This document shows, in pieces, positions 1-13,951 of a stretch of DNA of 64,000 nt; the stretch's first letter is position 1, and each line of letters opens with the position of its first letter. The translations under genes and the position numbers were made by a program. This stretch comes from Nocardioides sp. L-11A (GTDB taxonomy: Bacteria; Actinomycetota; Actinomycetes; Propionibacteriales; Nocardioidaceae). A model generated the notes under the pieces. That model saw only the letters and a list, made by a program, of their open reading frames with translations. It was not told where the DNA came from and ran no database searches. The DNA lies in contig CP124680.1 of assembly GCA_029961745.1 (NCBI GenBank), positions 248,001 to 312,000 of the forward strand, written 5' to 3'.

Positions 1-6
1 TCGCCG

Positions 7-1245
7 TCACCGTGGAGTCGTGACCGCCTCGCCGGGCGTCAGGACCGGCGTACGCCGGGCCAGCCCGCGCGCCGACGGGGCGGCGAGCGCGGCCAGCGAG
101 CTGAGCCCGATCACGGCGGCGACGACGAGCAGCCAGGTGTCGGTGCCGACCAGCGCGGCCACCGGACCGGTGAGCGCGAGGCCGATCGGACGGCAGGCGA
201 ACGAGCCGACCAGGTCGAAGGAGTAGACCCGCGCGAGCATGTCCTCGGCGATGTTCTCCTGGATCGCCAGGTCCCAGTTGACGCTGAACAGCTGCAGGCC
301 GACGCCGTGCACGAACGCTCCGGCCAGGACCAGGCGGAGATCGTCGGCCACGGCCATCGCGAGCGGGAACGCCGCGGTCAGCGACAGCAGCACCAGGCCC
401 CAGCGCAGCAGGTGGCGCGGGCGCCAGCGCAGCGCGACCAGGCCGCCCGCGACGAAGCCCACCATGAGCGCCGACAGCGCCCAGCCCCAGGCCTCCTCGC
501 CCCAGACATCGCCGACCACGATCGGCCCCAGCACGCCCTGGGCGCCGTTGTAGAACAGGTGGTAGAGCAGTGCCTGCCCGATCAGGAGCCACAGCCAGCT
601 GTGCCGGAACACCTCGCGCGCCCCGTCCGCGAGCTCGGCCAGGAGGCGCTCGCGCGACCCGTTCGTCGTCCCGGTCGCCCGGATCATCGCGAAGAGCACG
701 GCCGCGACGGCGTACGTCGCCGCGTCGGCCGCGATCGCCCACCCCGGCCCGGCGACGGCGACGATGATGCCGGCCAGGGCGAAGCCGACCGCGAAGGCGG
801 TCTGGCCGGCCAGGCTGCGCAGCACGACGGCGCGCGCGAGCTGGTCCTCGGCGACGGTCGAGCGGGTCATCGCGTTGGACGCGGGCTGCGCGATGGCGCC
901 GAGACAGCCGTTGACCACGCCGATGGCGGTGAGGAACCAGATCGAGCCGTGCCCGGTGACGAGCACCACCGCGACCGCCGCCTGGCTGACGGCGGTCGCC
1001 GCCGACGAGCCCTGCATGAGCAGCGGGCGGGGCAGTCGATCGCCGAGCACACCGCCGTACAGGATGGTGACGACCTCGGCCGCCGCGAACGCGGCGACGA
1101 CGAGGCCGAGCTGGGTGGCCGTGCCGCCGAGGTCGAGGACCGCGAAGGCCAGCGCCACCGGCGTCATCGCCGAGCCGAGTCCGCTCACCGCGACACCGCC
1201 CACGAGTAGGCGGAAGTCGCGCGAGCGAAGCGGAGACGGAGGCAC
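7..1245 (-). CDS. MFS transporter, EntS/MFS_3-like exporter
   Basis: This 412-residue integral membrane protein is built almost entirely of hydrophobic helices, about 12 by eye, which is full length for the major facilitator superfamily. The loop GGVLGDRLPRPLLM near residues 64-77 matches the conserved cytoplasmic loop 2-3 motif, and the opening SRDFRLLVGG resembles the enterobactin-exporter-like (EntS, MFS_3) branch. It probably exports a small hydrophobic compound with the proton gradient; the substrate is not predictable. The GTG start at 1245 has no Shine-Dalgarno but has TAATCT six bases upstream, so the mRNA is probably leaderless. A MarR-like inverted repeat overlaps that promoter and a marR gene lies nearby, which suggests ligand-induced derepression. 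The stop lies only 6 bases inside the window edge. Confidence 0.85.
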   Translation of the reverse strand: MPPSPLRSRDFRLLVGGVAVSGLGSAMTPVALAFAVLDLGGTATQLGLVVAAFAAAEVVTILYGGVLGDRLPRPLLMQGSSAATAVSQAAVAVVLVTGHGSIWFLTAIGVVNGCLGAIAQPASNAMTRSTVAEDQLARAVVLRSLAGQTAFAVGFALAGIIVAVAGPGWAIAADAATYAVAAVLFAMIRATGTTNGSRERLLAELADGAREVFRHSWLWLLIGQALLYHLFYNGAQGVLGPIVVGDVWGEEAWGWALSALMVGFVAGGLVALRWRPRHLLRWGLVLLSLTAAFPLAMAVADDLRLVLAGAFVHGVGLQLFSVNWDLAIQENIAEDMLARVYSFDLVGSFACRPIGLALTGPVAALVGTDTWLLVVAAVIGLSSLAALAAPSARGLARRTPVLTPGEAVTTPR

Positions 1246-1251
1246 CGAAGG

Positions 1252-1257
1252 AGATTA
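1252..1257 (-). promoter_or_regulatory. Candidate -10 box, leaderless promoter of the MFS gene
   Basis: On the minus strand TAATCT ends six bases before the GTG start, placing transcription initiation at or next to the start codon. No purine-rich ribosome site lies between. Confidence 0.4.
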
Positions 1258-1291
1258 CTTCGCTATCAAAGTATTCGGCAACGAAATACTT
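1256..1291. promoter_or_regulatory. Candidate MarR-type operator
   Basis: AAGTATT (1269-1275) and AATACTT (1285-1291) form a perfect 7-bp inverted repeat with a 9-base spacer. A further half-site TACTT sits at 1256-1260, facing AAGTA at 1269-1273. This A/T-rich patch stands out in GC-rich DNA and covers the -10/-35 region of the MFS gene. Assignment to the MarR protein at 1893 is inference from proximity. Confidence 0.4.
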
Positions 1292-1328
1292 GTTTCGGCG
1301 CGTCTCGACCGGGGGCAGGATCGGACCC

Positions 1329-1883
1329 ATGACCGCCTCCGGTGCTCCCTTCGCCCCGCCTCCGCCGCCCGGCCAGGGCCCGCCCGCTCCGTTCCCTCCG
1401 CCGGTGTCGCCGGCGCGGACGCTGGGCGACTCGATGGTGCTGCGGCACGTCGTCGGCGTGGTCGTCGCGCTCGTCCTCACCCCCATCGGCGTCCTGGTGT
1501 TCGACTACGGGGCCGGCACGTATGCGCAGAAGCGGGCGGTCACCCTCGACGGCTCCGGGGCGACCCGCGAGCTCGTGCTCATGTTCGTGGGGGCGCTGGT
1601 CCTGGCTGCGGTGGCAGCCTCCGCCCGGGTGTCCGGGCTGGGTCCGGTCGTCGCGGGGCTCCTGTGGGGCGGCCTCCCGTTCGTCTGGTTCCTGGTCGAC
1701 CTGCGGAGCTTCTTCGAGGTCACCCGGGACCTGCCGTCGAGCCACTACTGGTTCGCGGTCCCGACCTATCTGTTCCCCCTCGTCGGGGCGCTGCTCGTCG
1801 GCAGCGGGCTCGCCGGACGCTGGGGCAGCCGAGGGCGCGCCGCTCGACCTTCTCGAGGAGCTGACCCGGTCCACCCGCAGTAG
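1329..1883 (+). CDS. Small four-helix membrane protein, function unknown
   Basis: The product is 184 residues. Its N-terminal 30 residues are rich in proline, glycine and alanine, followed by four apparent membrane helices around residues 40-60, 75-97, 100-120 and 135-155. The ATG at 1329 was preferred to an in-frame ATG at 1290 because the upstream codons add an arginine-rich stretch unlike the rest. Proteins of this shape are common and uncharacterised in Actinobacteria; I recognise no catalytic motif. It is followed closely by the MarR gene on the same strand, whose -10 box overlaps this gene's TAG stop. Confidence 0.6.
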   Translation: MTASGAPFAPPPPPGQGPPAPFPPPVSPARTLGDSMVLRHVVGVVVALVLTPIGVLVFDYGAGTYAQKRAVTLDGSGATRELVLMFVGALVLAAVAASARVSGLGPVVAGLLWGGLPFVWFLVDLRSFFEVTRDLPSSHYWFAVPTYLFPLVGALLVGSGLAGRWGSRGRAARPSRGADPVHPQ

Positions 1884-1886
1884 CGT
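1881..1886 (+). promoter_or_regulatory. Candidate -10 box, leaderless promoter of marR-like gene
   Basis: TAGCGT lies exactly six bases before the ATG at 1893 and overlaps the TAG stop codon of the preceding gene. There is no Shine-Dalgarno before the ATG. Confidence 0.4.
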
Positions 1887-1892
1887 TCAGCC

Positions 1893-2399
1893 ATGGCCGA
1901 GGACTGGACGGACCGCCACGTCGCGCGGTGGAAGGATCATTGGCTCGACCTGGAGTTCGACGAGGTCGTGGAGGGCGTGTTCGTCCGGGTCAACCGGATC
2001 GACCGATACCTGCGCGCCGCCAAGCAGCGCGCCGTGGCGACGGTCGGCCTGACCGACTTCGAGTACAACACCCTGCACCTGCTGATGATCCGCGATACTC
2101 CCGGCTCCGCGTCCCCGACCGAGCTCGCCGCCGAGCTCGGCATGTCCGGGGCGGGGATGACCGGCCGGCTGGACGGGCTGGAGAAGGCCGGCTGGATCCG
2201 CCGGATCCCGTCGGTCGACGACCGGCGCCGGGTGATCGTCGAGGTGACCCGGTCCGGGATGGCCGCGTGGCGCCGGGCCATGGACATCCGCGGCGAGGCC
2301 GAGAACGACCTGGCCGACGCGCTCACCGAGCGCGAGCTGGCGACCCTCAACCGCCTGCTCAAGAAGGTCACCGTGCGCGCCGAGGAGCGGGAGGCCTGA
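1893..2399 (+). CDS. MarR family transcriptional regulator
   Basis: This 168-residue protein has the usual MarR length and layout: an N-terminal dimerisation helix, then a winged helix-turn-helix at about residues 60-125. The recognition region SPTELAAELGMSGAGMTGRL is followed by the wing IPSVDDRRRVIVEVT, where the DDRR motif is a MarR hallmark. It is a cytoplasmic DNA-binding protein that probably represses a transporter or detoxification gene and releases DNA on binding a small ligand. The divergent MFS gene about 650 bases away, with its inverted repeat, is the obvious candidate target. Its own mRNA appears leaderless. Confidence 0.88.
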   Translation: MAEDWTDRHVARWKDHWLDLEFDEVVEGVFVRVNRIDRYLRAAKQRAVATVGLTDFEYNTLHLLMIRDTPGSASPTELAAELGMSGAGMTGRLDGLEKAGWIRRIPSVDDRRRVIVEVTRSGMAAWRRAMDIRGEAENDLADALTERELATLNRLLKKVTVRAEEREA

Positions 2400-2420
2400 G
2401 CCCCGAGCCCGGGCGGGTTG

Positions 2421-2684
2421 CTACAGCTGCTCCTGCCCGAGGGTCAGGATCGCGAGCAGCCGGCGATCGAGGTGGAGCGACGCGGTGAGGCCGAGGGTGC
2501 CGAACACGTCGGCGCACAGAGCGGCGACGCTCTCCGGGCTCAGGTGCAGCTGGGCCGCGATGGCCTTGTCGGACTGGCCCAGTGCGACGAGCTCGAGGAC
2601 CCGGCGCTGCCGGTGGCTGAGCCGGTCGAGCCGGTCGGCGGCGACGGTGGTGAGCTCGATGGTGGACGTCCTTCGCGGGTGCAT
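2421..2684 (-). CDS. Stand-alone LuxR-type HTH protein
   Basis: The 87-residue product is essentially one GerE/LuxR DNA-binding domain. LSHRQRRVLELVALGQSDKA is followed by IAAQLHLSPESVAALCADVF, which has the spacing of the four-helix LuxR HTH with the xxReVLxLvaxG signature. No receiver or sensor domain precedes it, so it is either a small independent regulator or an adaptor. It starts 12 bases after the stop of the upstream gene (2697-3110) on the same strand, so the two are probably co-transcribed. The ATG at 2684 lacks a strong ribosome site, which fits translational coupling. The target is unknown; proximity to the sigma-factor module is suggestive only. Confidence 0.7.
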   Translation of the reverse strand: MHPRRTSTIELTTVAADRLDRLSHRQRRVLELVALGQSDKAIAAQLHLSPESVAALCADVFGTLGLTASLHLDRRLLAILTLGQEQL

Positions 2685-2696
2685 GACGGGTGACCA

Positions 2697-3110
2697 CTAG
2701 TCCAGGAGCGAGCCGCGGTGGACGCCGCGGTACCGGCGGCGCAGACGGATCCGCCCGGGTGGCCGGGGCCGGGGGAGCTGCGGGAGGAGTGTGGCGGGGC
2801 GCAGATCCGCCAGGTCGAGCAGGACGGGGGCGTCCGGGTCCCCGGCGTCGTACCGACGCAGGATCTCGCGGACCGCGAGCTCGGTACGGCGCACCCGGAC
2901 GTCGACCTCCCGGTCCTCGTCGAGCCCCGCGGCGGGCGATGCCGACGTCCACTGCCGCCCGTGGGTGCGGAGGGCCGCGACCAGTCCGGCCGGGCCGTCG
3001 AAGTGCGTGCGCCACTCCTCCCGCCAGGGCAGGGCGCCGCTCATGTCGACGGCGGCGACCGCCTCGACCACGCGGATGATGCGGCGGCGTTCGTGGATGC
3101 TCCAGGTCAT
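2697..3110 (-). CDS. Hypothetical protein upstream of the HTH gene
   Basis: This 137-residue soluble protein has no signal peptide, membrane segment or motif I recognise. It opens MTWSIHERRRIIRVVEAVAA, carries acidic and arginine-rich helical stretches in the middle, and ends in a very basic proline/arginine-rich tail (residues about 108-133), which could bind nucleic acid or a partner protein. It is transcribed divergently from the sigma-factor gene across a 170-base gap with an inverted repeat, and runs into the LuxR-type HTH gene. Codon use looks like that of its neighbours. Confidence 0.5.
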   Translation of the reverse strand: MTWSIHERRRIIRVVEAVAAVDMSGALPWREEWRTHFDGPAGLVAALRTHGRQWTSASPAAGLDEDREVDVRVRRTELAVREILRRYDAGDPDAPVLLDLADLRPATLLPQLPRPRPPGRIRLRRRYRGVHRGSLLD

Positions 3111-3182
3111 GGGGGAGTCCTTCCGAGGAGTCGTGCGGGCAGGCGGGAGCGGATAGGGGAAGGAGGCGCCCGGCCGCGCCGG

Positions 3183-3207
3183 TGATACACCCGAAGCCGA
3201 CGTATCA
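3183..3207. promoter_or_regulatory. Inverted repeat between divergent genes, candidate operator
   Basis: TGATAC (3183-3188) and GTATCA (3202-3207) are perfect inverted 6-mers with a 13-base spacer. They lie in the intergenic region shared by the hypothetical/HTH unit on the minus strand and the sigma factor on the plus strand. The binding protein is unknown; the LuxR-type HTH protein is one candidate. Confidence 0.3.
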
Positions 3208-3282
3208 GCGGTACTGGCTCGCGGGTCCGATGTGCGGGACGATGCATCCGCAAGCTCTCGCGTGACGCGAAGGGGGTCGGGT

Positions 3283-3855
3283 GTGGACGTGGACTCACCG
3301 CTGCCGGCGCTCGTCTCCGCGGCGCGGGAAGGAGATCAGCATGCATGGGATGCGATCGTCGAGCGGTTCCTCCCGCTGGTGGACGCGATCATCCGGGGCC
3401 ACCGCCTCGGCGAGGCCGACGGCGACGACGTCAGCCAGACCGTCTGGCTACGTCTCGTCGAGCACCTCGGTGACCTGCGCGAGCCGGCGGCGCTGCCCGG
3501 CTGGCTGCGGACGACGACCCGCAACGAGTGCCTGCGGCTGCTGGCGGCCCGGGGCCGGATCCGACCGGTCGACCCGCAGGACGCCACCGGCCTCGACGCC
3601 GTCGTCGACGACAGCGCCGGTGTGGGGCTGCTCGCCGCGGAGAGCCGACAGCTGCTCCGCGAGGCGCTCGCCGCGCTGCCCGAGGCACGCCGTGCGCTGC
3701 TCCTGCTGCTCCTCGCGGACCCGCCGGTCGGCTACCAGGAGATCAGCCGGCGCCTCGGCATCCCGGTCGGCAGCATCGGTCCGACCCGGGCGCGCGCGCT
3801 CGACCAGCTGCGCCGCACCCCTGCCCTGCGCCGACTGGTGGAGGTGACCCCGTGA
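3283..3855 (+). CDS. RNA polymerase sigma factor, sigma-70 family (ECF-like)
   Basis: The protein has about 190 residues with region 2 near residues 10-85 (helical HAWDAIVERFLPLVDAIIRG, then DDVSQTVWLRLVEHL and GWLRTTTRNECLR) and region 4 near 125-180 (LPEARRALLLL, then YQEISRRLGIPVGSIGPTRA). Regions 1 and 3 are missing, as in extracytoplasmic-function sigma factors. The GTG at 3283 is preferred over an ATG at 3232 because AGGGGG (3271-3276) is correctly placed and the family normally begins just before this point. It would redirect RNA polymerase to a small regulon. Its stop overlaps the start of the next gene (GTGA), as expected for a sigma factor and its regulatory partner. No zinc-binding anti-sigma factor is adjacent. 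Confidence 0.85.
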   Translation: MDVDSPLPALVSAAREGDQHAWDAIVERFLPLVDAIIRGHRLGEADGDDVSQTVWLRLVEHLGDLREPAALPGWLRTTTRNECLRLLAARGRIRPVDPQDATGLDAVVDDSAGVGLLAAESRQLLREALAALPEARRALLLLLLADPPVGYQEISRRLGIPVGSIGPTRARALDQLRRTPALRRLVEVTP

Positions 3856-4316
3856 ACGACCCCCGCGACGACGACCTCATGGCCCTGCTCGGCGACGCCG
3901 TGGCCGAGGAGGCGGCGGTCAGCGACCGCCGTCGTACGGCGGCGCGCGCCGCCTTCACCTGGCGATCGATCGACGCCGAGCTGGCCGAGCTGCTCCACGA
4001 CTCGGCGCTCGACGCCGGCGCCGCGGTCCGCTCGGACGGCGAGGACTCCCGGACCCTCTCCTTCGGGCACAGCGGGCTGACCCTCGAGCTCGAGCTCGAC
4101 GGCGAGGCACTCCTCGGCCAGGTGATCGCTCCCGGCGGCGCCGCGGACACGACCGTGCCCGCCTCGGTGCTGCTGGAGCGGCCCGACGCCGATGCGCGCT
4201 CGGCGGTCGCCGAAGCCTCGGGCTTCTTCCGGTTCGAGGGCGTGCGGCCGGGCACGGCTCGCTTCGTCGTCGAGCAGGGCGGGTGGTCGCTCACCACGCC
4301 CTGGGTGACCCTCTGA
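3852..4316 (+). CDS. Small sigma-factor-coupled protein, candidate regulator
   Basis: The GTG at 3852 overlaps the sigma-factor TGA, so the 154-residue product is translationally coupled to it. The N-terminal part (residues 1-55) is acidic then helical, with TWRSIDAELAELLHDSAL as a striking amphipathic stretch. The C-terminal part (about 70-154) alternates hydrophobic and charged residues and ends in a beta-rich segment (GFFRFEGVRPGTARFVVEQG) resembling transthyretin or carboxypeptidase-regulatory folds. There is no membrane segment and no HxxxCxxC zinc motif, so it is not a classical anti-sigma factor. Position suggests it modulates the sigma factor or couples it to the protease and CHAT neighbours; that is inference. 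Confidence 0.65.
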   Translation: MNDPRDDDLMALLGDAVAEEAAVSDRRRTAARAAFTWRSIDAELAELLHDSALDAGAAVRSDGEDSRTLSFGHSGLTLELELDGEALLGQVIAPGGAADTTVPASVLLERPDADARSAVAEASGFFRFEGVRPGTARFVVEQGGWSLTTPWVTL

Positions 4317-4417
4317 TCCTCGGCGGCGACGAGCACGGCGCCCGTTCTCAGTTCCGTCGGTGGAAGCGGACGTCGCTGTCGGGCGACCGCTCAGCCGGTC
4401 ACCGCCGGCGGCCCGGC

Positions 4418-5809
4418 TCAGGTCAGCGGGCCGACGATCCTGATCGCCCCACCACGCGGGTCGGTCGCGGCGGTCGCGCCCGCGAGGACGTCGTTCCACG
4501 CCTCGCGCGCGGACTGCCCGGTCGCGCGCATCCGCGCGGCGATGAGCCCGGTGACGATCGGCGTCGAGAACGACGTACCGCTCCACTGGGCGAGGCCGTC
4601 GAAGGTGCGGACCTCGCCGACGTGCGGCGGCTCGTGGCAGGTGTAGGTGCCCTTCGGGAAGGCGTTGACCAGGTCGCGCCCGCGGGCGTACACGTCGACC
4701 CATCGCCCGACGTTGGAGAAGTCGGAGACGCAGGCGTCGGGGTCGACCGAGCCGACCGAGACCACCCACGGGAAGGCGGCCGGCCAGAACGGCTGGTCGC
4801 TGGAGTCGTTGCCCGCCGCGGCGACGATCAGGACGTCCGTGCGCTCGGCGAGCTTGTTGGTCTCGCCGAGCAGTCGGAATCCGAGCAGCGCGAAGTCGCC
4901 GCGGGTGTGGGTGCCCGCCGAGATGCTGACGAGCTGCGGACGGTCGTCGTCATCGATCGCCTGCTGGAGCTGCTCGACGATGTCGGACTCGTAGACCGCG
5001 CCCCCGTGGACCAGCACCCCCTCCACCTCGACCCGGGTGTCGGGTGCCAGGCAGCTGATGACGCCGGCGACGAAGGTGCCGTGGCCGGCGTACGGGTGGA
5101 TGGCGTCGGGGTCGACCGTCTCGACGTCGCCGGGGTCGGCCACGACGTCGCCGGCCTCCAGCCAGGGGGTGGCGGTGCTGCCGACGGCGTCGGTCCACAG
5201 ACCGGTGTCGACGACCGCGACCCGGACCCGGTCGCGGTCCGCGAGCCTGCCCGGCGAGGGATGGGCCGCGGGCCAGGGCTTGGTGTGGCGATGAGGCGTC
5301 TCGGGCTCCGTGGCCGGGCACATGAAGCCGCGCGGCGTCACGTAGACGACGTGGTCAGGCGTGGCGGCACCCCGCTCGAGGACCTGGGAGCGCTCCAGCT
5401 CGTCGAGCGTCGCGAGGACGTCGTCCTGGCGGTCCACCCGGGAGGGCAGGCGCGCGAGCAGCAGGTCGGGGACCCGGGTCTCCCGGGCGTCCAGACTGCC
5501 CCGGAACCGCTTCCGGTTCTCGTCCGTTCCGAAGTACTCCTCCAGCCGGCCGAGGTCCTGGCGACGCACCAGGGCGTGCCCGGGCCGGTAGAGATAGTGG
5601 ACGTCGGCGTCGTCGCCGGTCGGCCGCGATCCCTTCGCCGGTGCGCCCGAGACGCCGGAGTCCTTCATCGCCTCGCGGATCACCCGCACCTGGGCGCGCA
5701 GCCGCTCGGCTCCGACGTCGCGTGGTGGGTGGGGCCGGGTGAGCCGCAGCCGCCGCAGCAGCTCGCGCAGCAGGTGGACCGGGAGGCTGGGTCGTACGGG
5801 ATCGCTCAT
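4418..5809 (-). CDS. S8 family (subtilisin-like) serine protease, apparently cytoplasmic
   Basis: The 463-residue protein carries a complete subtilase catalytic set: Asp201 in VAVVDTGLW, His243 in YAGHGTFVAG, the oxyanion Asn334 in VAAAGND and Ser413 in SGTSFSTPIVTG. The catalytic domain spans about residues 190-463. Residues 1-185 are a charged N-terminal region that is neither a signal peptide nor a normal secreted propeptide, so the enzyme probably acts inside the cell. The ATG at 5809 is preceded by AGGAG at suitable spacing. It is divergent from the TPR-CHAT gene (98-base gap) and convergent with the sigma-factor pair. Two protease-type proteins plus a sigma factor suggest a proteolytic signalling cascade; substrates are unknown. 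Confidence 0.9.
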   Translation of the reverse strand: MSDPVRPSLPVHLLRELLRRLRLTRPHPPRDVGAERLRAQVRVIREAMKDSGVSGAPAKGSRPTGDDADVHYLYRPGHALVRRQDLGRLEEYFGTDENRKRFRGSLDARETRVPDLLLARLPSRVDRQDDVLATLDELERSQVLERGAATPDHVVYVTPRGFMCPATEPETPHRHTKPWPAAHPSPGRLADRDRVRVAVVDTGLWTDAVGSTATPWLEAGDVVADPGDVETVDPDAIHPYAGHGTFVAGVISCLAPDTRVEVEGVLVHGGAVYESDIVEQLQQAIDDDDRPQLVSISAGTHTRGDFALLGFRLLGETNKLAERTDVLIVAAAGNDSSDQPFWPAAFPWVVSVGSVDPDACVSDFSNVGRWVDVYARGRDLVNAFPKGTYTCHEPPHVGEVRTFDGLAQWSGTSFSTPIVTGLIAARMRATGQSAREAWNDVLAGATAATDPRGGAIRIVGPLT

Positions 5810-5907
5810 GGCCGCTCCTGGGGCGAGGTGACGGACCGGGCCGGGGCCTGCCGTCGGCGCTAACGTAGTGCTGCCGCGCGGGTCCCGTAAAGGAGCACAG
5901 ACCGCCG

Positions 5908-8442
5908 ATGGAGGAACTGCTCGACCTCGCACTCGAGGATCCCGACCAGGGTCGAGCCCGGGCGGAGGCGCTGCTGCGCGGGCCGGCGGACGCCCTCGCC
6001 CGTTCCTACGCGCACCAATGCCTCGGCATCGTGCACCGCGACCGCGGCGATCACGACGCCGCCCTCCGGGAGCTGCGCGCGGCGCTGCGGGCCGCCCGGC
6101 AGGCGTCCGTGCCCGACCGGGAGCGGGACGTCCGCGCCACGCTGGGAGCGACCCTGGTGTTCGCGGGTCGGACCCGGGCCGGCCTCGCCGAGCTGGCCCG
6201 AGCGGCCGACGGTGCGACCGGTGCCCTGGCCGCGCGCATCGGCATGCGGCGGGCCGGGGCGCTGGTGCTGCTCGGCCGCGACGAGGAGGCGATGCCGGTC
6301 CTGCGGGCCGCGCGGGACGCGCTCGCCGCGACGGGCGACGAGGTCTGGGAGGCCCGTACCCGGATCTGGCTCGGCGACCTGGAGCTGCGCCGGGGCCGCC
6401 TCGACGCCGCCGAGGCCGAGGCGCGACGCGCGGAGCGACTCCTGGAGCGGGCCGGCGCGCAGCTCGAGCGGGTGACGGCGCTCGAGAACCGCGCCGACAT
6501 CGCGATCGCGCGGGGCGACGTGGCCGGCGGACTGCGGCGCTACGCCGAGGCGGCCGAGCGGTACCGGTCCCTGGGCCAGCCGGTCCGGTACGCCGGCACC
6601 GCGATGCACGCCCGCGCCCATCTCTCCGCCGGTCTCGCCCGTGAGGCGGTCGTCCTGATCGCGCGGTTCCTGGAGCGGGGCGGGATCCCCGCCGTCGACC
6701 AGGCCGAGCTCCACCTCCTGCACGCGACCGCCCTGCTGGCGATGGCGGAGGAGGGCCGGGCGCTGGAGGAGGCTCGGACGGCGCGGGCGATGTTCCGCCG
6801 CCAGCAGCGCGACTGGCACCGGCTGCGCGCCGAGCTCGTCGAGCTCCGGGCCCAGGACGCCGCCCGGGCGGGTCCGAGCCGGGGCCGGGCAGCCGCCCTG
6901 GCCGCGGCCCTGGACGCCGAGCGGGCCCACGAGGCGCCGGTCGCGCTGATCCTCGCCGGGCGCCTCGGTGACGGTGACCAGCGGTTGCGCGCCTGGACCC
7001 GCGCGGCGTCGTACCGGCACCACCCGAACGCCCTGGTCCGGGCGGGCGCCTGGCACGCGCAGGCGCTGGCGCGCGAGGAGACGGGGGGCCGCGGCGGCGT
7101 CCTCCGGGCGGCGGCCGCGGGGCTCGCCGCCGTCGACGAGCACCGTCGGCTGATCGGCTCCTCCGAGCTGCGGGCGCTGGCGACGGCCCACGGTCGCGAG
7201 CTGACCGCGGTCGCCCTGCGCCACGCGGCCTCGGACGCGCGGACCCTGCTGCGGTGGAGCGAGCGGACCCGGGCCACGGCGCTGGCGCAGCCCCCCGCGA
7301 CCTCGGACGCCGCCACGATCCCCGCCGCGCTGGCGGCGTTGCGCGCCAACGGGCGGCAGCTGGCCGAGGCACGACAGGAAGGCACGGCGACCGAGGACCT
7401 CGAGCGGGAGCGCCGCCGGCTGGAGCGGGCGGTGCGGGCGCAGAGCCACACGCTGTCGGCGACCACAGCCGCGCAGCAGCGGCCGGCGGGAGTCGAGGAG
7501 ATCCTGGCCGCGACCGACGACACCTGCCTCGTCGAGCTGGTCGAGGTCGACGGGAGCCTGCACGTCGTGGTCGCCCACGCCGGCACGGTACGGCGCCGGG
7601 TGGCCGGGTCGGCGGACGAGATCGCGACGCTGCTCGGTCCCGCGGGGATGCTGCTGCGCCGCGCGGCCCGCGGCCGGCCGGCCGACACGGCCGACCTGGG
7701 GCGGGCCCTCCAGGAGGCGGTGCTGGGCGAGGCGGTCCGGCTGCTGCCGGACGCCCCGGTGGTCCTGGCCCCGACGGCCCGCCTGCACGGCCTGGCCTGG
7801 TCGCTGCTCCCGACGCTGCGCGACCGGCCGTTCGCGGTGGTCCCCTCGGCAGGCCAATGGCTGCGTGCCCGCGCCACGGCGGCCCCCGACCCGGTCAGCA
7901 CCGTCCTCGTCGCGGGACCGGCGCTGGCCAGCGGCGGGGCCGAGGTGCCGGTCCTGGCGCGCCGTCATCCCGACGCGGTGTTGCTGGACGGGCCGCGGGC
8001 CACGCTCGACGCCGTCCTCGCCCACCTCGACGGGGCCGGACTGGTCCATCTGGCCGCGCACGGCCGGTTCCGCGCGGACAGTCCGCTGTTCTCGGCCCTC
8101 GACCTCGCCGACGGGCCGCTGACGGTCCACGACCTGGAGCGGATCCGGCGGGCGCCGTACCGGGTGGTGCTGTCGGCGTGCGAGTCGGGCGTGCTGGCGC
8201 CGGTGGGGGCCGAGGAGCTGCTCGGCCTGGCGGCGGCGCTGTTCTCGCTCGGGACCGCCGGGCTCGTGTGCAGCGTCGGCGAGGTCAACGACGCCGCCAC
8301 CGCCGACCTGATGGTCGACCTGCACGCCGCCCTCGCGGCCGGCGAGGACCCGGCCACCGCACTGCTCGGTGTCCGGCGCCGGGCGGGCGGCGACGCGGTG
8401 GCGGCCGGTACGGCGGCGGCCTTCCTCGCCCTGGGGGTGTGA
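5908..8442 (+). CDS. TPR-CHAT domain (caspase-like) protein
   Basis: The 844-residue protein has a long helical N-terminal region (about 1-500) of degenerate tetratricopeptide-like repeats rich in Ala, Arg, Leu and Glu, then a C-terminal CHAT domain (about 560-844). The caspase-type dyad is intact: His718 in VHLAAHGRF and Cys758 in VLSACESG. CHAT proteases are clan CD cysteine peptidases related to separase, caspase and the Csx29 subunit of type III-E CRISPR effectors. The TPR part normally senses or holds a partner and gates the protease. An AGGAG (5891-5895) lies 12 bases before the ATG and TAACGT at 5861-5866 could be its -10. No signal peptide is present. The adjacent subtilase, sigma factor and small protein are plausible partners or targets. 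Confidence 0.88.
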   Translation: MEELLDLALEDPDQGRARAEALLRGPADALARSYAHQCLGIVHRDRGDHDAALRELRAALRAARQASVPDRERDVRATLGATLVFAGRTRAGLAELARAADGATGALAARIGMRRAGALVLLGRDEEAMPVLRAARDALAATGDEVWEARTRIWLGDLELRRGRLDAAEAEARRAERLLERAGAQLERVTALENRADIAIARGDVAGGLRRYAEAAERYRSLGQPVRYAGTAMHARAHLSAGLAREAVVLIARFLERGGIPAVDQAELHLLHATALLAMAEEGRALEEARTARAMFRRQQRDWHRLRAELVELRAQDAARAGPSRGRAAALAAALDAERAHEAPVALILAGRLGDGDQRLRAWTRAASYRHHPNALVRAGAWHAQALAREETGGRGGVLRAAAAGLAAVDEHRRLIGSSELRALATAHGRELTAVALRHAASDARTLLRWSERTRATALAQPPATSDAATIPAALAALRANGRQLAEARQEGTATEDLERERRRLERAVRAQSHTLSATTAAQQRPAGVEEILAATDDTCLVELVEVDGSLHVVVAHAGTVRRRVAGSADEIATLLGPAGMLLRRAARGRPADTADLGRALQEAVLGEAVRLLPDAPVVLAPTARLHGLAWSLLPTLRDRPFAVVPSAGQWLRARATAAPDPVSTVLVAGPALASGGAEVPVLARRHPDAVLLDGPRATLDAVLAHLDGAGLVHLAAHGRFRADSPLFSALDLADGPLTVHDLERIRRAPYRVVLSACESGVLAPVGAEELLGLAAALFSLGTAGLVCSVGEVNDAATADLMVDLHAALAAGEDPATALLGVRRRAGGDAVAAGTAAAFLALGV

Positions 8443-8633
8443 CCCGGGACGGGGCGAAGAAGGTCGAGAACTACGTCGGCCTCGCCTCGGCGTACCGCGG
8501 GACGGGCGCCGCCGCGGTCGGCAACCTGGTCGCGGGCGTCCTCCCCGACGGCATGCTGCCGACCGGATGCCGCTCCTGCCTGCCGTTCTCCTCGTCGTCG
8601 GTGAGCTGGTTCCCGGGTTGCTCTGAACCCGCT

Positions 8634-8696
8634 CGGTTCACCTACCGAAATTGTCGGCGTGCCGGGGTGTGGACGACGAATCCGGTAGGTGAACCG
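8634..8696. repeat. Palindromic repeat family A, copy 1
   Basis: Arms at 8634-8656 and 8674-8696 start with CGGTTCACCTACCG and are inverted, with three mismatches in the inner part and a 17-base loop. It lies between the CHAT stop and the PhzE-like start. Related copies are at 13867-13931 and 56422-56480. The other 190 bases between the CHAT stop and this repeat show no gene. Confidence 0.8.
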
Positions 8697-8703
8697 CGGT
8701 CAC

Positions 8704-8709
8704 TAGGCT
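8704..8709 (+). promoter_or_regulatory. Candidate -10 box, leaderless promoter of the PhzE-like gene
   Basis: TAGGCT lies six bases before the ATG at 8716 and there is no ribosome binding site. The palindromic repeat copy 1 ends only 7 bases upstream and would cover the -35 region. Confidence 0.4.
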
Positions 8710-8715
8710 GCGGCC

Positions 8716-10632
8716 ATGACTGACACCAGCCTCACTGCCCGGGAAGCCATCACGGCCGTCCAGGGGCACGAGGCCTGGGCGATCATCCGGCGCTCCACCC
8801 GCGCGGGCGACCGCGACACCGTCGGCGTCCTCGGCGGCACCCGCAGCATCGTCGAGTCGATCATGGACATCCCTCTCGAGACGGGAGTCCCGGAGCCGGG
8901 ACACATCTGCGACCGGCTGGTCGCCGTACCGTTCCGTCAGGTGAGTGAGCGCGGCTTCGAGGCCCACGACGACGGCACCCCGCTCGTCGTCGTCGACGTG
9001 CAGGCCGAGCACGAGTTCTCCGTCGCCGACGTGGTCGACGCGATCGACCCGGTGCCGGTCGAGTTCACCGACCGCGGCGGCTTCGAGACCGGCGACGACG
9101 AGTACGCCGAGATCGTCGCCGCGATCATCGAGGGCGAGATCGGCCAGGGCGAGGGCGCCAACCTCGTCATCGGCCGCAACTACCGGGCGGTCGTCGCCGA
9201 CTTCGACGCGTCGGTCGCGCTCACCGTCTTCCGCCGGTTGCTGGAGCGCGAGCGGGGCGCGTACTGGACCTTCGTCTTCTTCACCGGCGACCGCTTCCTG
9301 ATCGGCGCCTCGCCCGAGCGCCACGTGTCGGTGCACGGCGGCGACGTGCGGATGAACCCGATCTCCGGCACCTTCCACCTGCGCCCGCCCGCCGGCGAGA
9401 CCCGCAGCACCGAGGAGCGGATGCGCGCCTTCCTCCAGGACGAGAAGGAGATCTACGAGCTCTTCATGGTCGTCGACGAGGAGCTCAAGATGATGTGCGA
9501 CATCTGCACCGAGGGCGGCCAGGTGCTCGGGCCCTTCCTCAAGCCGATGACCCACCTCATCCACACCGAGTACCTCCTCGCCGGCCGCACGACCCGCGAT
9601 GTGCGTGAGGTCCTGCGCGACACGATGTACGCCGCGACGGTGACCGGATCGCCCGTCGAGAACGCCTGCCGGCTGATCAAGCAGTACGAGCCCGAGGGCC
9701 GTGGCTACTACGCCTCCGCGCTCGCGATCTTCGGTCGCGACGACGCCGGCGAGCCGGTCCTCGACAGCCCGATCGTGCTGCGCACCGCCGACGTCTCGCC
9801 CGCCGGGGAGCTGAAGGTGACCGCTGGGGCCACGCTGGTGCGCGACTCCGACCCGGCCTACGAGGTCGCCGAGACGCACGCCAAGGCCGGCGGCATCCTC
9901 TCCGCCTTCGGCCTGGTGCCGCCCGCGCCGGTCGCCGACGTCCCCGTCGCCGACCTCGTCGCCGACGAGGAGGTGCTGATCGCGCTCAACGCGCGCAACA
10001 GCCGGCTCTCCGGCTTCTGGCTCGCCGACCAGGCCGGTACGCCGAGCGACCCGCGCCTCGCGGGGAAGTCCGCCGTCATCCTCGACGGCGAGGACGACTT
10101 CGTGAACATGCTGCGGCACATGCTCGCCCGGATGGGGATGAGCTCGTCGGTGGTGCGTCATGAGGACTACGCCGACGGCGTACTCGACGGCTTCGACCTG
10201 GTCATCGTCGGCCCCGGCCCCGGTGACCCGCGCGACGACACCGACCCCAAGATGGGCCGGCTCCGCGCCGCCGTGACCTGGCTGCTCGCCCACGAGAAGC
10301 CGTTCGTCGCCGTCTGCCTCGGCCACCAGGCGCTGTGCCACCAGCTCGGCGTCCCGGTCGCCTACAAGGACATCGTCTTCCAGGGCACCCAGGCCACCGT
10401 GCTGCTCGACGGGCGTCCGCAGCGGGTGGGCTTCTACAACACCTTCGTGGGTCGGGTCGCTCCCGGGCTCGCGCTGCCGGATGGGGTCCGGGTGGACGCC
10501 GACGCCGAGACCGGTGACGTCAACGCGCTCGCCGGCCCGCACTACCGCGGCGTCCAGTTCCATGCCGAGTCGATCCTCACCGAGCGCGGCTTCGACATCG
10601 TCCACGACCTGGTCGCCGGCGTCCTGCTCTGA
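8716..10632 (+). CDS. Anthranilate synthase family protein, TrpE-TrpG fusion (PhzE-like)
   Basis: The 638-residue protein fuses a chorismate-binding TrpE-like domain (about 1-430) to a class I glutamine amidotransferase domain (about 445-638). The amidotransferase triad is intact: Cys534 in AVCLGHQA, His616 and Glu618 in VQFHAES. The TrpE part contains MNPISGTF, then DEELKMMCDIC and ATVTGSPVENACR, which resemble phenazine-type PhzE (2-amino-2-deoxyisochorismate synthase) more than ordinary TrpE. It would transfer ammonia from glutamine to chorismate. No other phenazine gene and no trpD, trpC or trpB follows, so the product may be anthranilate or aminodeoxyisochorismate for another route. The start appears leaderless. 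Confidence 0.85.
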   Translation: MTDTSLTAREAITAVQGHEAWAIIRRSTRAGDRDTVGVLGGTRSIVESIMDIPLETGVPEPGHICDRLVAVPFRQVSERGFEAHDDGTPLVVVDVQAEHEFSVADVVDAIDPVPVEFTDRGGFETGDDEYAEIVAAIIEGEIGQGEGANLVIGRNYRAVVADFDASVALTVFRRLLERERGAYWTFVFFTGDRFLIGASPERHVSVHGGDVRMNPISGTFHLRPPAGETRSTEERMRAFLQDEKEIYELFMVVDEELKMMCDICTEGGQVLGPFLKPMTHLIHTEYLLAGRTTRDVREVLRDTMYAATVTGSPVENACRLIKQYEPEGRGYYASALAIFGRDDAGEPVLDSPIVLRTADVSPAGELKVTAGATLVRDSDPAYEVAETHAKAGGILSAFGLVPPAPVADVPVADLVADEEVLIALNARNSRLSGFWLADQAGTPSDPRLAGKSAVILDGEDDFVNMLRHMLARMGMSSSVVRHEDYADGVLDGFDLVIVGPGPGDPRDDTDPKMGRLRAAVTWLLAHEKPFVAVCLGHQALCHQLGVPVAYKDIVFQGTQATVLLDGRPQRVGFYNTFVGRVAPGLALPDGVRVDADAETGDVNALAGPHYRGVQFHAESILTERGFDIVHDLVAGVLL

Positions 10633-10740
10633 TCGCTCCGGGCACTTTCCACAGGCCGCGGATCGGTGGTGGCGCCGAGGCCGGGACGGCGTCAGGCTGG
10701 TGGCATGGCCACCCGGACCCTCGAGACGCCCGGCGCGCGG

Positions 10741-10746
10741 TATGAT
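10741..10746 (+). promoter_or_regulatory. Candidate -10 box, leaderless promoter of the VapBC-type operon
   Basis: TATGAT, one base from consensus, lies six bases before the antitoxin ATG at 10753 with no ribosome site between. No good -35 is visible 16-18 bases upstream. Confidence 0.45.
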
Positions 10747-10752
10747 GGCAGT

Positions 10753-11019
10753 ATGACCACGAAGATCGCCGTCAGCCTGCCCGACCATCTGGTCGAGCAT
10801 GCCCGTGCGGCGGTGGCCGAGGGGAAGGCCGCCTCGGTCTCGGCCTATGTCGCCCAGGCCCTGCAGGAGAAGGCGGACCGGGAGCCGATCGGCGACTTCT
10901 TCGAGATGTTCGACAAGAAATGGGGTTCGCCCACTGCGGAGCACGATGCCTGGGCGCGCGAGCAGCTCGACCGCGCCGACAGGGAGATGGCCGAGAAGAA
11001 GGCCAAGGGCCTCTTGTGA
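10753..11019 (+). CDS. Antitoxin, ribbon-helix-helix (VapB-like)
   Basis: The 88-residue protein begins MTTKIAVSLPDHLVEHARAA, the beta strand plus helix of a ribbon-helix-helix DNA-binding domain, and continues with an acidic C-terminal half typical of the toxin-wrapping tail. It should neutralise the PIN-domain RNase encoded directly downstream and autorepress the operon. The GTG of the toxin overlaps its TGA. The ATG at 10753 is chosen over upstream in-frame ATGs because the RHH strand begins here and a TATGAT box sits six bases before it. Confidence 0.85.
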   Translation: MTTKIAVSLPDHLVEHARAAVAEGKAASVSAYVAQALQEKADREPIGDFFEMFDKKWGSPTAEHDAWAREQLDRADREMAEKKAKGLL

Positions 11020-11399
11020 CCCGTGCGGGCCTGACTCTCGATGCCGGTGCTCTGATCGCGGTCGAGCGTGGCAACCTCTTCGTCCGACGCTTGATCGAGA
11101 ACGCGTTGAGGGAGGATCGGCCGATCCATGTCGTGCCCGGTGTGCTGGCGCAGGTCTGGCGCGGTGGACCACGTCAGGCCGAGCTTGCCGCGCTGCTGGG
11201 GTGCGACGGCGTCACCCTGGTCGGTCTGGATCCGGAGACGGCTAAGCTGCTCGGCCTGGTCGTCGGGGCGACCGGACACACGGATGTCACCGATGTCCAT
11301 GTGGCAGTCCACGCGCGGCAGCGCCAGCACGCCGTGATGACCTCCGATCCCGAGGACATTCGCGCCGTCGACCCTTCACTCTCCATCATCGCCGTCTGA
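11016..11399 (+). CDS. PIN domain toxin (VapC-like RNase)
   Basis: The 127-residue product has PIN-domain layout: the first metal-binding acidic residue in LTLDAGALIAVERG near the N terminus, a mid-protein helical region (VLAQVWRGGPRQAELAALLG), and C-terminal acidic residues in HTDVTDVHVAV and MTSDPEDI. PIN toxins are Mg-dependent RNases that cut tRNA or rRNA when free of antitoxin. The GTG start overlaps the antitoxin stop, and its own TGA overlaps the ATG of the next gene, so all three genes may be translated as a coupled unit. Length is normal for VapC. Confidence 0.85.
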   Translation: MTRAGLTLDAGALIAVERGNLFVRRLIENALREDRPIHVVPGVLAQVWRGGPRQAELAALLGCDGVTLVGLDPETAKLLGLVVGATGHTDVTDVHVAVHARQRQHAVMTSDPEDIRAVDPSLSIIAV

Positions 11400-11974
11400 T
11401 GCTCATGGCGGATCTGATCGCCCGGCCACCCGGCGAGTACCTCGACGCCGACGACATCGTCGAGTCGACCGCGCCGGAGGTGATGGCGCTGGCGGCGCGG
11501 CTGGGCGCCGGCCGCGGGGACGATCGGGCCTTCGCCCGCGCGGCGTTCGACTGGGTGCGCGACGAGATCGCCCACGCCGGCGACGCGGGGGATCCGCGGT
11601 TCGCGGTCTCGGCGACCGAGGTGCTCGCCGACGGCGTCGGCTGGTGCTACGCCAAGGCGCACCTGCTGACCGCGGTGCTGCGCGCGGGCGGCGTACCGAC
11701 GGGGCTGTGCTACCAGCGGTTGGCCGACGACGGGACCGACGGCGGGTACGTCGTGCACGGGCTGGTCGCCGTCCACCTCGACGGCGGCTGGCACCGGCAG
11801 GACCCGCGCGGCAACAAGCCGGGGGTCGCGGCGGAGTTCTCCCTCGGTGAGGAGCGGCTGGCCTGGCCGGTCGACCCGGCACTGGGGGAGGTCGACCACC
11901 GGGGGGTGCACGTCGCCCCCGCGCCCGGCGTGATCGCCGCGCTGCGGCGCGGCGAGCTGGCGACCGAGCTGTGA
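11399..11974 (+). CDS. Transglutaminase-like domain protein
   Basis: The 191-residue soluble protein matches the transglutaminase-like (cysteine peptidase) fold. The catalytic Cys lies in DGVGWCYAKAHLLTAVLRA, His in YVVHGLVAVHLDGGWHRQ, and Asp in the following RQDPRGNK. Stand-alone bacterial members of this family are usually peptidases or amide hydrolases of uncertain substrate. The ATG at 11399 overlaps the toxin stop (TGATG); a second ATG at 11405 is an alternative. The overlap couples it to the toxin-antitoxin pair, although this may be accidental packing. Confidence 0.75.
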   Translation: MLMADLIARPPGEYLDADDIVESTAPEVMALAARLGAGRGDDRAFARAAFDWVRDEIAHAGDAGDPRFAVSATEVLADGVGWCYAKAHLLTAVLRAGGVPTGLCYQRLADDGTDGGYVVHGLVAVHLDGGWHRQDPRGNKPGVAAEFSLGEERLAWPVDPALGEVDHRGVHVAPAPGVIAALRRGELATEL

Positions 11975-12008
11975 GCGCTCATCCCCACCTGATGCCCAGG
12001 ACGCCGCG

Positions 12009-12551
12009 GTGACCCCCGATGTCGTGGTCGTCGACCACCGCGACTCCTACACCTGGAACCTGGTCCACCTCGTCGCCGGCGTGACCGGCGTGCTGCCGAC
12101 CGTGGTCCAGTGGGACGACCCCGTCGAGCTGTCCGGGTTCTCCCACGTCGTGCTGTCACCGGGACCGGGCCATCCGGGCGAGTACGACTGGGACTTCGCC
12201 GGTGAGCGCCCGGTGCTCGGGGTCTGCCTCGGCATGCAGGGGATGGTGCTCGCCCACGGCGGCGAGGTCGGGCGGGTCGAGCCCGCGCACGGCGTGGTGG
12301 AGTCGGTGACCCACGACGGCCGCGGCGTGTTCGCCGGGGTGCCGTCGCCGCTCGACGCGGTGCGCTACCACTCGCTCGCTGCGACGCGGCTGCCCGACGA
12401 GCTCGAGGCGACCGCCTGGGCCGCCGACGGCACCGTCATGGGCGTGCGGCACCGGAGCCGGCCGATCGAGGGCGTGCAGTTCCATCCCGAGTCCGTCCTC
12501 TCGACGTACGGCGCGAGGCTGGTCGCGAACTTCCTCGCCGTGGGACGCTGA
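12009..12551 (+). CDS. pabA: Aminodeoxychorismate/anthranilate synthase glutamine amidotransferase subunit
   Basis: The 180-residue class I glutamine amidotransferase has the nucleophile Cys73 in GVCLGMQG, preceded by the oxyanion strand VVLSPGPGHPGEY, and the His/Glu pair in GVQFHPESVLSTYG. It supplies ammonia to the chorismate-binding subunit encoded 4 bases downstream, for p-aminobenzoate (folate) synthesis. It is shorter than many TrpG proteins but the domain is complete. The start is GTG at 12009. Assignment to PabA rather than TrpG rests on pairing with a PabB-like partner and absence of other trp genes. Confidence 0.85.
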   Translation: MTPDVVVVDHRDSYTWNLVHLVAGVTGVLPTVVQWDDPVELSGFSHVVLSPGPGHPGEYDWDFAGERPVLGVCLGMQGMVLAHGGEVGRVEPAHGVVESVTHDGRGVFAGVPSPLDAVRYHSLAATRLPDELEATAWAADGTVMGVRHRSRPIEGVQFHPESVLSTYGARLVANFLAVGR

Positions 12552-12555
12552 CCGG

Positions 12556-13854
12556 ATGGTCACCCAGGGCGACCCCGCCGAGGCGTTCGCGCGGATCCAG
12601 GCCCGTCATGCCCGCTGTGTGTGGCTCGACGGCGGCGGCGCCCGCGACTGGTCCCGGCGCCGCTCGATCCTCGGTTGGCTCGACGACGACGACGTCTCGC
12701 TCAGCTATGACGCCGCCCGGCGCGAGGTGACCCGGCATGCCGGCGGCCGCGCGGTCGTGGTCGGCGACGACCCCTTCGCCGTCCTGGAGGCGGAGCTGGC
12801 GGCCGGACGCCCCACCGACCAGTGGTTCGGCTACTTCGGGTACGCCGCGCGCCCCGACCTGCCCGCCGAGCCGGACCCGGACCTGCCCGACGCGGTGTGG
12901 CTGCGGCCCTCGCACCTCCGGGAGTACGACCACCCACTTGTCGAGCGTTCCCTGCACTTGTCGGGCGTTGCAACGCCCGACAAGCGTCGGAATCACCGGT
13001 CGACCGGCGATTCCGACAGCCTCCCCCCCGCCTACGCCGCCGCCTTCACCCGGGTCCAGGAGCACCTGCACGCCGGCAACTCCTATGAGGTCAACCTGAC
13101 CCACCGCGTCCGCGCGAGCAGCCCGCTCAGCCCCGCGGCGGCGTACCTCCGGCTCCGTGCGCTCAACCCCGCCCCGTACGCCGGCTTCCTCCAGCACGAT
13201 CTCAGCAACACCGTCGGGGCCCCTCCGAAGTCGACGGCCTGGCTGCTGAGCTCCTCGCCCGAGCGGTACGCGCTGATCGACGAGCACCGGACCCTGGAGA
13301 CCAAGCCGATCAAGGGCACCACGGCGCGCGGGGCCACCCCCGCCGAGGACGCGGAGGCGCGGGAGCGGCTGGCCAGCGACGCGAAGTACCGCGCCGAGAA
13401 CCTGATGATCGTCGACCTGCTCCGCAACGACCTCGCCACGGTCTGCGCCCCGGGCACCGTCGAGGTGCCCGCGCTGATGGAGGTCGAGTCCTACGCCTCC
13501 GTGCACCAGCTGGTCTCCACGGTCCGTGGCCGGCTCCGCGACGACGTCACGACCCTTGGCGCGCTCCGGGCGCTGTTCCCCGCCGGCTCGATGACGGGCG
13601 CGCCCAAGCTGCGCACGATGGAGATCATCGAGGAGGTCGAGGCGACCCCCCGCGGCGCGTACGCCGGTGCCTTCGGCTGGGTGTCCGGCGACGGCCGGGC
13701 GGACCTCGGCGTCGTCATCCGCTCGCTGCTGAGCGCCGGCGAGGGTTACATCCTCGGCACCGGCGGCGGCATCATCGTCGCCAGCGAGGTGGCCGAGGAG
13801 TGGGCCGAGACGGAGTGGAAGGCGGCTCGGCTGCTCCAGGCGATCAACCCCTGA
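12556..13854 (+). CDS. pabB: Aminodeoxychorismate synthase component I
   Basis: The 432-residue protein carries the chorismate-binding domain in its C-terminal two-thirds: HAGNSYEVNLTHRVR, then LETKPIKGTTARGATP, AENLMIVDLLRNDL, PAGSMTGAPKLRTMEII and a C-terminal GYILGTGGGI. It converts chorismate plus ammonia from PabA to 4-amino-4-deoxychorismate. Unusually, residues about 132-155 (SLHLSGVATPDKRRNHRSTG and onward) are encoded by a palindromic repeat also found between genes at 19601-19669. It is inserted in frame in the linker between the N-terminal region and the catalytic domain. The insertion spares every recognised motif, so the enzyme is probably active. No pabC follows. Confidence 0.88.
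   Translation: MVTQGDPAEAFARIQARHARCVWLDGGGARDWSRRRSILGWLDDDDVSLSYDAARREVTRHAGGRAVVVGDDPFAVLEAELAAGRPTDQWFGYFGYAARPDLPAEPDPDLPDAVWLRPSHLREYDHPLVERSLHLSGVATPDKRRNHRSTGDSDSLPPAYAAAFTRVQEHLHAGNSYEVNLTHRVRASSPLSPAAAYLRLRALNPAPYAGFLQHDLSNTVGAPPKSTAWLLSSSPERYALIDEHRTLETKPIKGTTARGATPAEDAEARERLASDAKYRAENLMIVDLLRNDLATVCAPGTVEVPALMEVESYASVHQLVSTVRGRLRDDVTTLGALRALFPAGSMTGAPKLRTMEIIEEVEATPRGAYAGAFGWVSGDGRADLGVVIRSLLSAGEGYILGTGGGIIVASEVAEEWAETEWKAARLLQAINP
12951..13017 (+). repeat. Palindromic repeat family B, copy 1, inside pabB
   Basis: Two adjacent hairpins form the unit. Hairpin I at 12957-12984 is a perfect 28-bp palindrome centred on TTGCAA. Hairpin II at 12986-13017 has 9-bp outer arms (GTCGGAATC/GATTCCGAC) around CCGGTCGACCGG. 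The second copy is at 19601-19669. The outer arm of hairpin II differs between copies (GTCGG versus TGCAGG), yet both sides changed together so pairing is kept. Confidence 0.85.
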
Positions 13855-13866
13855 TGCTCGCCCTGT

Positions 13867-13931
13867 GCGGTTCAACTACCGAATTTGTCGTGATCGGTCG
13901 CCGGGGACGACAGATTCGGTAGTTGAACCGC
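13867..13931. repeat. Palindromic repeat family A, copy 2
   Basis: Arms of 24 bases at 13867-13890 and 13908-13931 pair with one mismatch around a 17-base loop. The arm begins GCGGTTCAACTACCG, whereas copies 1 and 3 have GTTCACCTACCG; the change is mirrored in the opposite arm. It lies between the convergent pabB and DUF3558 lipoprotein genes and fills most of that 97-base gap, so it may act as a bidirectional terminator. Confidence 0.85.
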
Positions 13932-13951
13932 AGCCGGCAGACCCACCCCGG

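Follow-up and report, generated by a model that had tools for sequence, protein, structure and literature searches.

In the type III-E CRISPR system Craspase, the protease Csx29 cuts Csx30, whose N-terminal domain binds and inhibits the extracytoplasmic function (ECF) sigma factor CASP-sigma (PMC10028731; this and the other cited systems are compared as described in excerpts of the articles). We analysed a stretch of 64,000 nucleotides from Nocardioides sp. L-11A (contig CP124680.1, positions 248,001 to 312,000; hereafter the window), in which genes for an ECF-like sigma factor (SIG), a small anti-sigma-like partner (SML), an S8 subtilase (SUB) and a tetratricopeptide repeat (TPR)-CHAT protein (CHAT) lie side by side. 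The host genome comprises 5.68 Mb, and the closest named homologues are from Nocardioides. We suggest, with a probability of about one half, that these genes encode a CRISPR-free, protease-gated sigma switch in which CHAT cuts SML and thereby frees an autoregulating SIG.

The locus resembles Craspase in combining a TPR-CHAT protease, an ECF-like sigma factor and a two-domain, putatively sigma-binding protein with a flexible linker. However, SML has only 154 aa whereas Csx30 has at least 565 aa, and a conserved subtilase is added. The locus also differs from type III-E systems in that CHAT scores far below the Csx29 NCBIfam cut-off (16.3 versus 300 bits), and no CRISPR-like array was seen among the 20 listed of 32 direct-repeat families in positions 1-14000, Cas7-11 not having been searched for. 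In Myxococcus xanthus the ECF sigma factor DdvS is likewise controlled by a CHAT-domain protein, DdvA (PMC4374960). DdvA is itself a transmembrane anti-sigma factor, whereas here CHAT is apparently soluble and a separate small protein is encoded beside SIG. Proteolysis of a sigma inhibitor also frees the ECF factor in the DegS/RseP-RseA-RpoE pathway (PMC8103513), but there by membrane and periplasmic proteases and with proteins unrelated to those of the module. In bacterial EACC2 and caspase systems a gene for a caspase-fold protein is found close to one for an ECF sigma factor, though with other partner domains and, in the excerpts, no SML-like protein or subtilase (PMC8195603). No published description of the four-gene module was found in the open-access literature searched; groups of the ECF reclassification may include it. 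A last likeness is to separase, a helical solenoid with a C-terminal clan-CD protease: the best matches of the CHAT model (predicted local distance difference test, pLDDT, 90) are separase (E 5e-16) and Csx29 structures (1e-15). Separase is the eukaryotic cohesin protease and, in contrast to the system considered here, is not known to involve a sigma factor.

The four families recur together across actinobacteria. Searches with CHAT, SUB and the small protein in 147 same-order genomes repeatedly converged on the same neighbourhoods. With the single window proteins as queries, 40 loci representing part of the CHAT matches in the order held SIG in 36, SUB in 38, CHAT in 39 and SML in 28 cases; one further CHAT (L040) and one SUB (L044) are present but were missed by the simple gene caller. 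The lower count for SML is due to divergence of its sequence, and in nine distant loci the neighbour of SIG is an SML homologue of 148-172 aa recognised by alignment. An independent test used the sigma alignment alone against named genomes and kept the best 80 of 563 relatives, with families called by profiles built from the order-level loci (SML at E<=1e-4). SML was present in 77 of these 80 loci, and the 53 with complete 8-kb flanks (52 distinct sigma proteins) contained CHAT in 45 and SUB in 39 cases. In two of the 80, the three remaining families are present and only SIG escaped the gene caller. Among the organisms represented are Streptomyces, Lentzea, Amycolatopsis, Catellatospora and Streptosporangium as well as Kribbella, Phycicoccus, Solirubrobacter, Acidimicrobiia and Nitriliruptoraceae. 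Across a phylum sample, SML (E<=0.001) was detected in 50 of 346 genomes and 34 of 219 genera.

An initial annotation of the window, made without database searches, had grouped the four genes into one candidate signalling module, and this grouping passed the co-occurrence check. A conserved gene order was not found: membership is conserved, and 95 compact four-gene loci show nine arrangements (duplicates L040, L128 and L160, with identical SIG tails, dropped). The grouping might be thought accidental or merely inherited synteny, given genomes that hold parts of the set at separate loci, such as G308 with SIG-SML in L111 and SUB-CHAT in L072. Such an explanation is extremely improbable and accidental grouping was rejected, since CHAT accompanies 45 of 53 sigma-chosen loci and the same members recur in nine rearranged orders over the phylum. 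All eight genomes whose full-flank loci lack CHAT (L116, L119, L133, L146, L148, L164, L179 and L184) encode a full-length CHAT relative at another site; of three more genomes searched for such a relative, G500 and G501 yielded one and G499 none. One locus (L110 in G243) contains tandem cassettes, the second consisting of SML, CHAT and SUB, where no SIG was called next to SML.

The four open reading frames were confirmed as sigma factor, small partner, S8 protease and TPR-CHAT protein (Table 1). The initial annotation had listed them as if they followed one another on a single strand; the SUB gene is in fact convergent with the SIG/SML pair and divergent from CHAT, and therefore the four genes do not form one operon or transcript. 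SIG matches Sigma70_r2 (5.7e-10, 39.3 bits) and Sigma70_r4_2 (25.8 bits) in Pfam, both over the cut-off, as well as TIGR02937 in NCBIfam (58 bits, cut-off 42.9), and it carries sigma70 regions 2 and 4 only, as an ECF factor does. Translation could also begin at an upstream GTG (3232), but this start would stand just 3 bases beyond the end of the putative promoter match. In 137 of 142 cases the gene immediately after SIG is SML, and the two overlap in 90.

The model of SML comprises two helices (residues 4-21 and 25-56), a disordered linker and an Ig-like sandwich (67-154). Matches of this model in Foldseek and VIA span mainly the sandwich (about 65-154) and not the helices, while sequence searches for solved relatives gave three weak matches (best E 0.01), of which none was labelled as an anti-sigma factor. 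Pfam returned sub-threshold matches only, to CarboxypepD_reg (8e-5) and RsiG (0.03; 14.5 bits versus a cut-off of 27), and NCBIfam none; membership in a known anti-sigma family was therefore rejected. Within the linker, where pLDDT falls under 50, 120 of the 121 non-redundant SML proteins have Arg60, mostly in the context V-R-G/S/A. Arg60 is thus a candidate cut site for a protease, and the linker pattern V/T/A-R-G/S/A presumably fits Arg-specific clan-CD enzymes such as separase.

CHAT matches PF12770 (5.7e-26, 92 bits) with TPR matches below the cut-off, and it combines the CHAT domain, the His/Cys dyad and the TPR region of the TPR-CHAT class with the Csx29/separase fold. The TPR part forms a superhelix similar to those of Rap, NprR and MalT. 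SUB matches Peptidase_S8 (5.1e-23) and carries the Asp-His-Ser triad and oxyanion Asn of the S8 family; it stays below the cut-off of the type VII secretion mycosin model (92.6 versus 278.75 bits). The catalytic residues, described as intact in the initial annotation, are conserved throughout the relatives, which were picked by score and length: H718 and C758 in all 115 distinct full-length CHAT proteins, and D, H and N in 119 of 119 subtilases, with S in 118 and the remaining sequence masked. A simple hydropathy scan found no hydrophobic N-terminal start in SIG, SML, SUB or CHAT, in agreement with the earlier reading of SUB as lacking a signal peptide. CHAT might act by binding rather than cutting, as a soluble analogue of DdvA with SML as co-regulator. 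The invariance of H718 and C758 argues for catalysis, no membrane segment is evident in CHAT, and we consider a binding-only role quite improbable.

SUB rather than CHAT could also be the enzyme that removes SML, in which case CHAT would serve to recruit or gate the subtilase, as a TPR-based scaffold or receptor. The SUB triad shows the same invariance as the CHAT dyad, a preference for Arg occurs among S8 enzymes, and of the 95 compact loci 46 have SUB on the SIG strand and upstream of SIG, while in 81 SUB and CHAT are neighbours. However, fewer full-flank loci had a called SUB than a called CHAT (39 versus 45 of 53, although at least in L174 SUB was possibly missed by the gene caller), the Arg context of the SML linker would suit clan-CD enzymes, whose fold CHAT shares, and this division of roles appears unlikely. 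A universal Arg in the N-terminal region of SUB was looked for and not found. Many distant SUB relatives carry perfect tandem repeats of 6-7 residues ahead of the S8 domain (L062, L063, L064, L068, L070, L079, L098, L107 and L110), with units that mostly differ among genomes, such as PLTRGN, GHPITG, NPAYQG and PGGTPY. The repeat test was passed by 22 of 121 subtilases, among which L191 is masked and L046 and L169 represent other N-terminal low-complexity stretches.

ECF sigma factors recognise two-box promoters with a spacing of about 16-17 bp, often upstream of their own operon. An ECF-like two-box motif, GTATCA-N16/18-TC, is frequent in the upstream regions of the loci, and we take its spacing to be the geometry of ECF promoters. 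GTATCA occurs exactly twice in the window, at 3202 (+) and 3188 (-), back to back between SIG and the divergent genes. The same pair is found in same-genus relatives (L032-L035), where the gene in the position of the 137-aa gene is also preceded by the motif. In 2.34 Mb of loci the motif matched 210 times, compared with 11 times for the reversed pattern. It precedes the SIG operon in 25 of 26 Streptomyces loci (reversed 0) and 47 of 114 other loci (reversed 1), with the operon head set by SUB/CHAT adjacency and two contig-edge loci and 15 without a called SIG left out. Unrelated genes as control gave 4 of 752 (reversed 3), and GTATCA is nearly absent on the CHAT strand (1 of 105). The most divergent loci (L080-L085, L108 and L109) lack the motif upstream of SIG, and some have GTATCA upstream of SUB. 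SIG may read this motif.

Table 1. Genes and sequence elements of the SIG-SML-SUB-CHAT locus; positions refer to the window.
Feature	Position	Strand	Remarks
ECF-like sigma factor (SIG)	3283..3855	+	190 aa, GTG start; region 4 with conserved GSIGP signature
Small anti-sigma-like partner (SML)	3852..4316	+	154 aa; 4-base overlap with SIG
SML Arg60 codon, candidate protease cut site	4029..4031	+	conserved, inside disordered linker
S8 subtilase (SUB)	4418..5809	-	463 aa; D201/H243/N334/S413
TPR-CHAT protein (CHAT)	5908..8442	+	844 aa; H718, C758
Putative sigma-type promoter, CGTATCA-N17-GTCC	3201..3228	+	faces SIG-SML
Second putative promoter copy, TGTATCA-N17-CTCC	3162..3189	-	faces 137-aa gene and LuxR helix-turn-helix gene
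137-aa protein, divergent from SIG gene	2697..3110	-	no Pfam match
LuxR-type (GerE) helix-turn-helix protein	2421..2684	-	87 aa; 12 bp downstream of 137-aa gene

Beyond the four families, 70 motif sites lie upstream of other genes, and 20 hand-picked motif-bearing genes were scanned with Pfam. Three encode LuxR-type helix-turn-helix regulators (L152 in Streptomyces, L133 in Planotetraspora and L168 in Thermomonospora). Surface or wall domains follow the motif in L129 (SLT and LysM), L136 (LysM), L052 and L054 (PASTA), L037 (LGFP) and L104 (Calx-beta). Others encode a trypsin just under the cut-off (L097), a 231-aa protein with CarboxypepD_reg under the cut-off (L126), DUF6895 (L036), APH (L103) and a prephenate dehydratase (L154). 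Six of the 20 had no Pfam match, including the window's 137-aa protein. Both this gene and the LuxR-type gene were verified on the minus strand, opposite SIG, as the initial annotation had placed them.

Alternatively, the module might act against phage or in cell death, with SIG switching on toxic effectors, a response that the initial annotation had considered. A link to bacterial immunity has been described for genes of the caspase fold located near ECF sigma genes (PMC8195603), and the LysM-domain neighbours L129 and L136, one with an additional lytic transglycosylase domain, could be viewed as effectors. However, PADLOC gave no match for SIG, SML or CHAT and only a generic subtilase/IetS match for SUB, the 1-14000 region showed no CRISPR-like array among the repeat families listed, and among the 20 motif-bearing genes scanned, six of them without a match, several resemble regulators or surface and wall proteins. 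A defence role thus found no support and is improbable, and assignment to a known anti-phage system was rejected.

Genome-wide, the motif was found at 104 sites and its reversed form at 62 in 20 genomes with the cassette, compared with 17 and 22 sites in 20 genomes without CHAT or SML matches. Most distant sites are therefore probably due to chance, and we claim no large regulon. The Nocardioides sp. L-11A genome contains 6 motif sites (reversed 2), two of them in the window. Another lies 68 bp upstream of a gene for a 428-aa protein with a signal-peptide-like start (L196:1501-2855), a possible distant target of SIG. In Kribbella-group genomes the motif precedes an exopolysaccharide-type operon at each of the 25 readable loci, the boxes being kept and the spacer diverged (26 operons found in 38 genomes searched, one too short; type judged from translations, genus inferred). 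In both genomes examined (G043 and G078) the cluster has a SIG gene and an SML-like gene of its own, and the operon was rejected as an output of the CHAT cassette; the motif there speaks for the specificity of the sigma family instead. A SIG paralogue convergent with an SML-like gene of 118-124 aa forms a stand-alone SIG-SML pair in L284 and L285 (with L228 and L229).

For the proposed switch we infer an order of events in which the N-terminal helices of SML would hold SIG until the long TPR solenoid of the cytosolic CHAT senses a triggering signal and its separase-like cysteine protease becomes active. CHAT would then cut SML after Arg60 in the linker and split the sigma-binding helices from the Ig-like domain. 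The modelled layout of SML, the conserved linker Arg and the separase/Csx29-like fold of CHAT give indirect support to the basic logic, already proposed in the initial annotation, of a protease releasing the sigma factor from a small protein. Freed SIG could bind GTATCA-N16/18-TC promoters, amplify its own operon and switch on a small local regulon, here the 137-aa and LuxR-type proteins and in relatives LuxR regulators, surface proteins and others. The probable role of SUB is to break down the SML fragment set free by the cut or to work in a cascade together with CHAT; finishing off SML in this way would be comparable to the multi-step removal of RseA outlined in excerpts of PMC8103513.

Several points weigh against this mechanism. 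Arg60 is also conserved in loci without an adjacent CHAT gene, so that it may serve structure or sigma binding instead. The Kribbella-group cluster with SIG and SML-like genes shows no called CHAT or SUB in the 13.5- and 19-kb stretches read, hence a SIG-SML pair need not depend on a linked CHAT. The motif is missing upstream of the SIG operon in 67 of the 114 non-Streptomyces loci. The cut in Csx30 lies in a loop of the C-terminal domain rather than in the linker, and no single Csx30 residue was essential (PMC10028731).

If the protease-gated switch exists as proposed, the logic of Craspase, in which a caspase/separase relative cuts a sigma inhibitor, would be widespread in Streptomyces, Kribbella, Nocardioides and uncultured actinobacteria, independently of CRISPR. 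Many genes annotated only as hypothetical, CHAT-domain or S8-peptidase would gain a common function. The mechanism is open to direct tests through Arg60, a single promoter-like motif and two catalytic residues. More tentatively, a phylum-wide, CRISPR-independent module, in which a separase-like TPR-CHAT protein would free an ECF sigma factor by cutting a mini-inhibitor after a near-invariant Arg with SUB as second protease, could possibly be the type of free-standing device for sigma release that came under RNA control in type III-E CRISPR.

Downstream of the module, two small overlapping open reading frames (10747-11019 and 10974-11399) resemble an antitoxin/PIN-type toxin pair as read from their translations, with no toxin assignment in NCBIfam. 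They lie between an anthranilate-synthase-like fusion of component I and glutamine amidotransferase (8716-10632) and a separate TrpG/PabA-like amidotransferase (12009-12551), which is the only one of the latter two to reach a family cut-off (TIGR00566).

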